Assembly: GCF_016901675.1 (NCBI RefSeq)
Contig: NZ_JACJKU010000004.1
Location: 1 to 41,582 of the forward strand
Direction: 5' to 3'
DNA from: Limosilactobacillus coleohominis
Lineage (GTDB): Bacteria > Bacillota > Bacilli > Lactobacillales > Lactobacillaceae
DNA length: 41,582 bases
The notes under the pieces are model-generated. The model was not told where the DNA came from, did not search any database, and saw only the letters and a program-made list of their open reading frames with translations. Shown here in pieces: positions 37,165 through 39,537 of the stretch. Within the stretch, counting starts at the first letter, position 1. The number at the start of each line of letters is the position of its first letter. A program made the position numbers and the translations under genes.

Positions 37165-37578
37165 ATGAAAAAACAAAACCATATTATTAAAATTATTGCT
37201 GTGACAGTAGTTACGTTATTGATCGCATTAGTGATTGAACTAACAATGTTTTCACAACACGGGATTGCCGTTATTAGTCAAGAATCAATAACCACTTTGG
37301 TATTGATGATTATAGTGGCAATCATTGTTACATTATTAGCAGTAGCTGATTGGCACTTTTCAAACTATGCGACTATTGCTGCAATGATGTATTATGGCAT
37401 TATAAGCTTAGGTGGCTTACTGCAGGTTAAAGCAAAATCATCAGTAAGCGGATTATTGATTCAACTACTAGCGATCATCGGCATCGTACTATGTGTGTAT
37501 GGAATTGTGCTAGGAGTTAAACAACGAGAATTATTTATGCAAAAAAAATATCGTGAAAAACGGCGGGGGATTAAATAA
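37165..37578 (+). CDS. Four-helix membrane protein, unknown function
   Basis: A 137-residue protein with four hydrophobic segments (IIKIIAVTVVTLLIALVIEL, ITTLVLMIIVAIIVTLLAVA, TIAAMMYYGIISLGGLL and LLIQLLAIIGIVLCVYGIVLG) and a strongly basic C-terminal tail (KQRELFMQKKYREKRRGIK). Not recognised. It overlaps the next gene by one base (TAATG), so the two are translationally coupled. AAGTGAAGGG precedes the ATG. Confidence 0.75.
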   Translation: MKKQNHIIKIIAVTVVTLLIALVIELTMFSQHGIAVISQESITTLVLMIIVAIIVTLLAVADWHFSNYATIAAMMYYGIISLGGLLQVKAKSSVSGLLIQLLAIIGIVLCVYGIVLGVKQRELFMQKKYREKRRGIK

Positions 37579-38042
37579 TGCAGTTAACTTACGAAGAATA
37601 TTTAGCTCAGTTAGAGAGTGATCATGTTCAAGTTACAACAACTAATACTACAACAGCAAAAATCCAAGAAGATGCAACCATCACTCAAGCCTTGAATTTT
37701 ATGGCTGATCAGCTAGCTAGTGGTTATTTATGTCGGTATGAGTGGCAAGTTACGATGCCAGTAGGCGAAGCGTTAAGTGTCCGCTTAGAAACAAATCTTA
37801 TTAATGTGCCGATGGCGGAAGCACCACGGTTAGATCCAAAGTTATTAACTCGTGATTCAAAATATCAGGTAAAAATTTACATGGTTGCAGAAGGTGATGA
37901 CCTGAATAAATCGTCACTACGGATTGATGAGTTAGTTGCTGATACTGAAGCAGTCGATACTGCAGAAGCGGTTAACCATTTTAAAGAATGGGTAGCTGAT
38001 CAACTTGCCATGACAGTTGAAAACCGGAAAGAAGCAGAATAA
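37578..38042 (+). CDS. Conserved-looking soluble protein, unknown function
   Basis: A 154-residue acidic protein without signal or membrane segment. It has a mixed helix/strand pattern, with an amphipathic N-terminal helix (LTYEEYLAQLESDHV) and a central sheet (YEWQVTMPVGEALSVRLETN). Not recognised. The start ATG overlaps the previous stop (TAATG). The strong promoter of the candidate RNA begins three bases after its stop codon. Confidence 0.75.
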   Translation: MQLTYEEYLAQLESDHVQVTTTNTTTAKIQEDATITQALNFMADQLASGYLCRYEWQVTMPVGEALSVRLETNLINVPMAEAPRLDPKLLTRDSKYQVKIYMVAEGDDLNKSSLRIDELVADTEAVDTAEAVNHFKEWVADQLAMTVENRKEAE

Positions 38043-38044
38043 GT

Positions 38045-38256
38045 TTGAGTTTTATAATTAATAATGTTAAGATAAACATTGCGATGAGTCGAGAGGTCTG
38101 GTAGCAACCCAAATGGCTACCATATGACATTTCGAGTGGGACACGTTAACCTGCCGGATTGCAGGGTGTCCGGTTTAAATAGCAGTGGACAGCTAGTTAA
38201 ACCTGAGATAGTATCAATACACAAAATCCGTTACCTTAGTGGTAACGGATTTTTTT
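38045..38256 (+). ncRNA. Candidate structured small RNA, possibly 6S-like
   Basis: A complete independent transcription unit without a reading frame. -35 TTGAGT (38045-38050), 17 bp, -10 TAAGAT (38068-38073); predicted RNA about 38080-38256 (about 177 nt). A strong terminator closes it: AATCCGTTACC (38225-38235) with GGTAACGGATT (38241-38251) and T7. Inside are a 7-bp hairpin (38099-38105 with 38116-38122) and a long hairpin with GGACAC/GTGTCC outer and CCTGC/GCAGG inner stems (38139-38171). A weak end-to-end pairing (38078-38081 with 38215-38218, and 38094-38097 with 38201-38204) resembles the closing stem of 6S RNA. The Lacto-usp RNA motif, reported near usp genes in lactic acid bacteria and proposed as 6S, is a candidate. 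Family call unproven. Confidence 0.6.
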
Positions 38257-39112
38257 ATTTTACTAGATAAATTTGTTCATCAATTAAATCAAATGTTTTA
38301 AGGTATTGGTTAACCTTTTGGAGATCTTCAGGCTGAGACAGTTGAGCATTATTCCAGAAATCCTTTGAATCAGTAGCTCCATTCTGCTCACCAACTACCA
38401 AAAATTTAATATCTGGATAGTTTTTACGTAAATACTGTAAAACTTGCCAATCTTGGTCACCTTTATCAGGAGCCCATGACATAATTACATAATGCACTTC
38501 ATTTCCATATTTATCAATTGCTGCGATAGCGTCTAGCTTTTCGATTGACGTTACCGGGTGTTTCCCAGTTTCGTTTTCAGTTACCCATTCCTGACTGTCC
38601 GTTGTATAGATAGTTTGATGGGGGTTATAGTTACGTAACCCTTTGGAAATATAACCATTGCCGGCCATAATTTCTAAAACGGGTGCACCATTGAGGTACT
38701 TACTTAATGCATTCGTGAATGAGGAGTTTGTGTATGACCACATTCCATAAGTATCTTCGAGATAATCGCGGAAATTACGTAACAATTCGTCTAATTTTGG
38801 CAGTGCAGCTGTATATTTATTCCATAGTTGATCACCTGTAGGGTCACCTTGCGGATATTTACTATTAATTTGTTTAAAAATGATATCTTGAGTATCATCT
38901 GGTAATAACATTTTAGGTAAAGGTTGCGGAAGCAATCCCGAACGTAATAATCGATCATTTAAAAGAGCATTATTGATAAGAAATTTAATCTTGGAAAAAT
39001 CACTAAACAGTTCTCCATACTGTTCTAACTGTTGAATGTAAGATGATTTATGAACAACGGTGTGTTCTTTATGAAATTGCTTTTTGATTTTTTTAAGTTT
39101 TCTTGGATTCAT
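38255..39112 (-). CDS. SAM-dependent methyltransferase-like protein
   Basis: A 285-residue protein. The C-terminal half has a class I methyltransferase-like motif I, PVLEIMAGNGYISKGL (near residue 140), an acidic post-I region (IYTTDSQEWV), and a motif IV-like VHYVIMSWAPDKGDQ. The N-terminal 130 residues are basic and helix-rich and not recognised. The target (nucleic acid, protein or small molecule) is unknown. AAAGGG precedes the ATG. It follows an XRE regulator by 11 bp on the same strand, likely one operon. Confidence 0.65.
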   Translation of the reverse strand: MNPRKLKKIKKQFHKEHTVVHKSSYIQQLEQYGELFSDFSKIKFLINNALLNDRLLRSGLLPQPLPKMLLPDDTQDIIFKQINSKYPQGDPTGDQLWNKYTAALPKLDELLRNFRDYLEDTYGMWSYTNSSFTNALSKYLNGAPVLEIMAGNGYISKGLRNYNPHQTIYTTDSQEWVTENETGKHPVTSIEKLDAIAAIDKYGNEVHYVIMSWAPDKGDQDWQVLQYLRKNYPDIKFLVVGEQNGATDSKDFWNNAQLSQPEDLQKVNQYLKTFDLIDEQIYLVK

Positions 39113-39123
39113 AAAAGTACCCT

Positions 39124-39537
39124 TTAGTTAAAATGTAAATTCAATTCTTCTTGTTTTCCATAGAATTTGTCAGTATCCTTGCGGTGGTTCCGACCAGTTA
39201 AATAACCATCAATTAATTGAAAGATTTCGTAACGGTCTTCACTGGATAACCTGGTATGATTGAACGTTAAACTTTTACTGGAGAAGAAAAGTTTAGCAAG
39301 ATCATAGTCATCGTGATCTTCTTTACCTGTCAGATAATCCAAACTCACATCAAAAAACTCTGCTAATTTTTTGGCTTCAATGTATGATGGGGTGCGAATT
39401 CCGCGTTCCCAATTACCAATTTGTGAAGCAGTATTGGGCCGTTCATTAGGACCAAGATGGCGATTTAATTCAGTTGCTAATTGTTTTAAAGTGATTTTTT
39501 GACCACGACGTAATGCCCGGAGACGTTCAGGAAACAT
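39124..39537 (-). CDS. XRE-family transcriptional regulator
   Basis: A 137-residue protein with an N-terminal HTH_3 domain (residues about 4-62: LRALRRGQKITLKQLATEL, QIGNWERGIRTPS, KKLAEFFDVSLDYLTG). The C-terminal 75 residues have no known domain. It likely regulates itself and the methyltransferase-like gene 11 bp downstream. GGGGGAG precedes the ATG (39535-39537). Confidence 0.88.
   Translation of the reverse strand: MFPERLRALRRGQKITLKQLATELNRHLGPNERPNTASQIGNWERGIRTPSYIEAKKLAEFFDVSLDYLTGKEDHDDYDLAKLFFSSKSLTFNHTRLSSEDRYEIFQLIDGYLTGRNHRKDTDKFYGKQEELNLHFN

Follow-up and report, generated by a model that had tools for sequence, protein, structure and literature searches.

The window analysed here is a 41,582-nucleotide stretch of Limosilactobacillus coleohominis DNA (contig NZ_JACJKU010000004.1), and the feature under study is a small RNA gene of the Ref68/Lacto-3 type that lies among protein-coding genes (Table 1). 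Two genes encoding proteins of 137 and 154 aa, which overlap by one base, and a usp gene (Pfam Usp, E 6e-29) lie upstream of the RNA, as the first-pass annotation of this DNA had described; the usp gene stands at a distance of about 1 kb, on the opposite strand. A 285-aa gene and an XRE-type repressor gene converge on the RNA from the other side.

Table 1. Features of the RNA locus and its flanking genes, numbered as in the window
Feature	Position	Strand	Remarks
154-aa protein	37578-38042		upstream of the RNA; no Pfam/NCBIfam match above cut-off
Predicted promoter	TTGAGT 38045-38050, 17 nt, TAAGAT 38068-38073; TG 38065-38066	+	read from the sequence
Small RNA, Ref68/Lacto-3 type, about 177 nt	38080-38256	+	RF02840 match, fold z
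5' box UGCGAUGAGUCGA	38080-38092	+	first 9 nt unpaired; last 3-4 nt in the base of P1
Helix P1	38090-38098 with 38126-38134; inner part 38100-38105 with 38116-38121	+	96.5% and 100% of cells paired
Four-way junction, closed by P0	38136-38222; P0 38136-38138 with 38220-38222	+	98.0% of cells paired (genus set), 98.2% (58 matches, compensatory changes numerous)
Arm P2, carrying P3	38139-38171; P2 38139-38144 with 38166-38171	+	100% of cells paired
Helix P3, loop CGGAUU	38150-38154 with 38161-38165	+	100% of cells paired
Arm P4, loop AGUGGACA	38172-38203	+	family motif UGUGGA/UGUGAAC, by eye
Short arm P5	38204-38216; 38204-38206 with 38214-38216	+	94.4% of cells paired
Intrinsic terminator	38223-38256; 13-pair stem and T tract 38223-38253	+	terminator scan
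285-aa gene of unassigned family, facing the RNA	38258-39112	-	similar genes on 26/258 loci
XRE-type repressor (HTH_3; RstR-like below cut-off)	39127-39537	-	similar genes on 21/258 loci

We place the putative start of the RNA at 38080 from the promoter and the register of the family. By our own count, the promoter agrees with 8/12 consensus positions and has an extended -10 element, and a scan set at 9 of 12 consensus positions did not include it among the sites listed, so that the earlier description of it as near-consensus was too generous. However, 141 of 143 family loci, which were found without regard to the promoter and include the window's own locus, carry TAnnnT 5-8 nt before the 5' box, with the TG added in 116. 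Because of this family-wide -10 element, the predicted promoter is still credible. The strong terminator that had been seen to close the region was recovered by the terminator scan, and the region holds no convincing reading frame, again as first described; the sole sense ORF of at least 30 aa inside the RNA (48 aa, 38124-38270) crosses the terminator. The RNA folds at -66.5 kcal/mol, compared with -42.8 +/- 4.6 kcal/mol for 200 dinucleotide shuffles (z -5.1), none of which folds as low. Fold energy, together with covariation and order-wide conservation, bears out the reading of a stand-alone gene for a structured RNA, equipped with a promoter and a terminator of its own. Taken as a whole, the earlier observation is partly confirmed and the interpretation built on it is partly supported.

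RF02840 (Ref68, Enterococcus sRNA 68 or Lacto-3) matches positions 38080-38195 with 66.3 bits (E 5e-12, gathering score 44). The 5' box and the P1, P2 and P3 helices of the RF02840 alignment are all present in the RNA, and P2, P3 and inner P1 are backed by compensatory changes. Independent expression as an sRNA, a trait of Ref68, is predicted here from the promoter and terminator. The first-pass annotation had instead put forward 6S or Lacto-usp RNA and had asked for an Rfam covariance scan. At E <= 10, the 9 matches in the 501 bases around the RNA include no 6S (RF00013) and no Lacto-usp (RF01710); both candidates were rejected. The length of about 177 nt and the stand-alone gene are shared with 6S RNA, but the same genome has its own 6S elsewhere (G000:C173:154-341, 64.2 bits). 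In addition, 6S RNA is a long rod with a bubble, in place of which the window RNA has a free 5' end and a four-way junction. The 6S-like end-to-end pairing noted earlier was not seen, the first 9 nt being unpaired in the minimum free energy fold, and the two clear hairpins gave way to six named helices plus the terminator. The probability that the RNA is 6S is practically nil.

The closeness of usp, which had suggested Lacto-usp, was compared across homologous loci. The usp gene is found on 14 of 18 Limosilactobacillus-type loci, two of which look like one genome, and on only 25/258 loci overall, both counts being lower bounds because loci span 3-8 kb; to judge from these loci, usp nearness is a lineage feature. 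RF01710 has no match in the whole genome either, a weak absence in that control genomes are silent too. We therefore regard the Lacto-usp identity as having next to no chance of being correct. The 154-aa gene accompanies the RNA on 52/258 homologous loci, and a neighbourhood that varies in this way, for this gene as for usp, is as expected for a trans-acting gene.

Two full-length models of the RNA were built, R1 from 18 Limosilactobacillus-type sequences and R2 from 58 sequences. Our data support a structure, predicted from sequence comparison, in which P1 and a four-way junction (P0 around P2/P3, P4 and P5) stand behind a free 5' box. RNAalifold, run on the 18-sequence alignment with no structure given, recovers P1, P0, P2, P3, P4 and P5. 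In this genus set 98.0% of cells are paired and 16/37 pairs show changes on both sides, including compensatory changes in 4/6 pairs of P2 and 3/5 pairs of P3. P5 has no compensatory change in the genus set and some in the wider set, where 84.7% of its cells are paired. The covariation among relatives, a check proposed at the outset, scores 0.352 versus 0.174 for shuffled alignments (0/500 as high) and at most 0.082 when the structure is slid. By a weaker measure, further pair types number 38 versus 34.6 in shuffled alignments, 35/500 of which reach the observed 38. R1 gave 58 matches at E <= 1 in 100 searched sources, six of them in its own seed members, and these 58 sequences, in an alignment fitted to the R1 structure, show compensatory changes in 35/37 pairs.

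P0, the short helix that closes the junction, was assessed separately. In a junction-anchored permutation test, which does not control for relatedness, at least 4 pairs form in 40/73 sequences versus 12.1 expected, with a maximum of 22 in 2000 permutations. These 73 come from 167 nonredundant sequences, 94 of which were dropped as automatic annotation misses (no P4 in 53, no P2 in 22 and no P5 in 19). A chimera test of this helix that relied on energy was negative (z -0.9), probably because its 3' window takes in terminator bases.

This type of RNA is already known, and Rfam catalogues it as two separate families. The window RNA scores 23.2 bits with RF01732 (asd/MarS), far under the gathering score of 84, and thus does not belong to that family; the sub-threshold match at the locus has its 5' sequence in common with the RF02840 match. 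More importantly, RF02840 and RF01732 hit one place in one register, with 5' ends 1 nt apart, in 32/32 doubly matched genomes, which brings asd/MarS, srf-17 of Streptococcus pneumoniae and Srn046 of Streptococcus agalactiae to the same position as Ref68. Both families also match in the control genome of Lactococcus lactis. R1, with its exclusively Limosilactobacillus-type seed, picks up RNAs of streptococcal type in the same register as well, though weakly (E 1.6e-4 for L044, 0.098 for L033 and 0.83 for L038), and the R1 and R2 models bridge the two groups. The RF02840 model (124 positions) shares the 5' box, P1, P2, P3 and the tip of P4 with the window RNA, and it has no counterpart of P0, of P5 or of the P4 base. 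The RF01732 model, which has the same box as the window RNA, already contains P0 and P2-P5. The Ref68 model is therefore truncated, since the parts that it lacks are present in the asd model. Judged by these models, Ref68/Lacto-3 and asd/MarS are one order-wide sRNA superfamily of common descent, filed as two Rfam families, and the window RNA would be kin within the superfamily while standing outside RF01732. Its identity as a Limosilactobacillus-type member, together with its fold, is secure. Both Rfam families carry "-" as clan in the search output, though they match the same loci.

Several relatives have been described in streptococci. Srn046/asd of S. agalactiae is about 200 nt long and was confirmed by Northern blot. 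Its level falls in acid and also late in stationary phase (PMC4448216), which runs contrary to the stationary-phase rise that the first-pass annotation had expected. In S. pneumoniae, srf-17 carries the annotation asd RNA motif (PMC6212727), and its TIGR4 counterpart F38 is tabulated with zero fitness in the nasopharynx in another report (PMC9426450). A search of open-access titles and abstract openings for Ref68/Lacto-3 by name returned the Rfam entry only. By eye, GGAGGU stands in the P0/P2 strand of many streptococcal-type copies and is missing from the window RNA. A Shine-Dalgarno-like AAGGAGGU stands in the P0/P2 5' strand of L033 and other streptococcal-type loci, at the position where a Ribo-RET signal has been reported for srf-17.

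The RNA is widespread in the order and was found only there by model searches of the class. The union of searches matched 192/295 genomes of the order, no search giving more than a single match in any genome: RF02840 matched 147 (75 above cut-off), RF01732 matched 66 (44 above cut-off) and R2 matched 132, including 11 missed by both Rfam models, all 11 of which have the box. The remaining 103/295 sampled genomes gave no match, which makes it unlikely that the RNA has a universal and essential role. Two class-wide samples, with members of the order among their 299 and 398 genomes, gave 8 and 15 matches, all within the order and none outside it, with stricter filters that lose some weak matches at that size. 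A DNA pattern scan (box plus -10) of 84,980 species found at least 117 stretches, and among the 80 matches listed by name, 79 are Lactobacillales, with taxonomy assigned from general knowledge. The box-promoter pattern also occurs outside the order on a Rhodobacteraceae MAG contig (L208:1673), where the family architecture is missing by eye; this match is probably due to chance. A protein-based scan of genome contigs found no relative.

The 5' box (consensus UGCGAYGAGYCGA) is present in register in all but one of 154 genomes. The exception (G180, locus L141) has an RF01732 match in which the promoter and box are replaced and the remainder of the RNA is kept. In the window's genome, the box pairs over 13/13 positions, with one U.G wobble, with the 23S rRNA strand UCGGCUCAUCGCA, which we take to be E. 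coli U2506-A2518 in H90, beside the peptidyl-transferase centre. The site was noticed on scanning one genome for complements of the box, with no pre-set hypothesis. Among shuffled boxes, 5/6000 pair as well (13/13 with at most one wobble) and 37/3000 reach 13/13 with any number of wobbles. The predicted box-23S duplex has an energy of -22.5 kcal/mol, which none of 1500 shuffled boxes attains against 16S plus 23S. Complementarity to rRNA would arise by chance about once in 1000, and these comparisons suggest that the match is beyond chance.

We also looked for complements of the box in other DNA. In 3.47 Mb of strand-counted flanking DNA, full 13/13 matches that use no more than one wobble fall on the antisense strands of family members, including one with a variant box (L035), and on two 23S genes in the flanks of L064 and L093; of 234 flanking sites of the own-locus form, 2 lie inside 23S genes. 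At these two loci, from different genera (G222 and G142), the RNA gene stands beside an rRNA operon, about 2.5 kb from the box-complementary 23S site, which is not the case in most complete genomes read. The sequence CTCATCGCA, complementary to nt 1-9 of the box, occurs at 7 sites in the window's genome versus 3 for a reversed control pattern. These sites include the RNA's own gene and, among the remaining six, a single one in 23S rRNA. The sites L284, L285, L287 and L290 are possible mRNA targets. A search of open-access titles and abstract openings on sRNA-23S pairing returned no report of box-23S pairing, and the description line of RF02840 is silent on 23S. The GGAU of the P3 loop could face AUCC just 3' of the 23S site, a second contact that is too short to judge.

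Some observations count against pairing with 23S. The last nucleotides of the box also serve P1, boxes ending in GGCGA (four genera of family f5) form a G.G mismatch with 23S, and a genome with an insertion in the box (G280) pairs at 9/13 positions. Two other uses of the box were rejected. Self-pairing through its near-palindrome is at odds with position 10, which by eye varies among U, C and G uncompensated. Mimicry of the H90 3' strand would not predict a C at position 6, because that strand (GTGAG, opposite the target in H90) is constant in the six genomes read, whereas box position 6 varies.

Box position 6 lies opposite the one position of the 23S target that varies (A or G) among the genomes read, and in the first six genomes C6 occurred only opposite 23S G. 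The 23S alleles were sought in 138 distinct genomes and found in 96 (58 + 38); the 42 without a match are probably draft assemblies without the gene. In these 96 genomes C6 faces G in 22 and A in 1, and U6 faces A in 52 and G in 21, the latter as a U.G wobble, with a genome-level significance that is inflated by relatedness. Pairing with the genome's own partner is 13/13 in 83 genomes, 12 in 11, 11 in 1 and 9 in 1, and full pairing drops from 83 to 64 genomes when the 23S allele is swapped. Across 40 genera, 6 C and 8 U stand on G and 1 C and 25 U on A (p = 0.0044, unstratified). The genus of G280, with its box insertion, was left out of this count. Genus g50 contains both box types and was scored as C, the type of its two members for which the 23S allele was found. 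Shuffling alleles within families only gives p = 0.016, a value that depends on genus g2 of family f1 and genus g64 of family f5. Few independent events lie behind the co-change (genus g2, genus g64 and family f3), and there is one exception, genus g17 (G286), with C6 opposite 23S A.

We propose that the RNA acts in trans and that its unpaired, nearly invariant 5' box base-pairs with the 23S strand beside the peptidyl-transferase centre, a reading to which we assign somewhat less than an even chance. From the sequence comparisons, this pairing appears to be the best single explanation for a free 5' end that is nearly invariant. The U2506-A2518 strand is buried in mature 50S subunits, so that the target is expected to be hidden in mature ribosomes, which counts against the pairing; for the same reason, a role on immature or unfolded 23S is favoured. 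By a further step, pairing would take place on newly made, immature or damaged 23S, and the paired RNA might act in 50S assembly, either as an RNA chaperone or as a checkpoint, or else might sense rRNA that is unassembled. The P4 loop would stay free for pairing with mRNA, as reported for MarS. In its most specific form, the 5' end would be an antisense guide to the peptidyl-transferase strand acting in 50S assembly or quality control, that is, a dedicated bacterial rRNA-pairing RNA, similar in principle to snoRNA chaperones. We hold this form to be rather unlikely. Archaeal and eukaryotic C/D and H/ACA guide RNAs likewise pair about a dozen nucleotides with rRNA; no such model matched at the locus, save a sub-threshold snoRNA on the opposite strand in the terminator region.

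The main rival to 23S pairing is an ordinary trans-acting regulator of mRNA, in which mRNA leaders are the partners of both the P4 loop and the 5' box, and the 23S match is coincidental. This reading has direct support in one streptococcus and is a serious, though on balance doubtful, candidate for the window RNA. MarS of Streptococcus pyogenes is a stable RNA, transcribed independently, whose binding to the mga 5' UTR has been reported in vitro: it shifts an mga 5' UTR probe, a change of 88-CC-89 abolishes the shift, and deletion of MarS lowers mga expression (PMC5613026). By our own count, positions 88-89 of the streptococcal-type RNA at L033 fall within the P4 loop GAACC, and we infer that the P4 loop of the window RNA corresponds by position to this site. 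A 5'-terminal seed is also usual in enterobacterial sRNAs. However, the box is conserved far beyond what mRNA leaders usually allow, none of the six non-self CTCATCGCA sites lies clearly at a sense start codon (by crude ORF calls in this genome), and rRNA complementarity of this quality is rare by chance, as shown above. Regulation of mRNA through the P4 loop and pairing of the box with 23S may both be true at once.

The compact junction with its conserved loops and box would also suit a protein-binding RNA, in which the box and the P3 and P4 loops bind an order-wide protein (KhpA/KhpB, RNA polymerase or a ribosomal protein) and base pairing plays a lesser part. In Enterococcus faecalis, sRNA binding by KhpB has been reported, but the available part of that report (PMC10117718) does not equate the three sRNAs named as most enriched (sRNA070, sRNA010 and sRNA156) with Ref68, and protein binding would not predict the co-change of box and 23S; we consider this explanation improbable. 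That the region is instead a leader or short ORF of flanking genes, or a by-product of a terminator, would fit rio56, a 6-aa sORF tabulated from a Ribo-RET signal inside the pneumococcal homologue srf-17 (PMC9426450). Against it stand the RNA's own promoter and terminator, a downstream gene on the opposite strand and the compensatory changes in the helices. In addition, 30/154 genomes have C in place of the U of the box AUG, on which ground a peptide starting in the box was rejected. This last explanation is very improbable.

Taken together, Ref68 and asd/MarS as one four-way-junction RNA would allow streptococcal, lactococcal and enterococcal results to be pooled, in a group for which we found function studied only for streptococcal MarS. 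If the pairing of the box with 23S is true, it would explain a 13-nt sequence that has barely changed across the order, and it would become testable whether bacteria guide or check the assembly of the ribosome's catalytic centre by RNA. Were the pairing confirmed, this would be a surprising ribosome-directed RNA; otherwise, it is a fresh example of a known RNA type.
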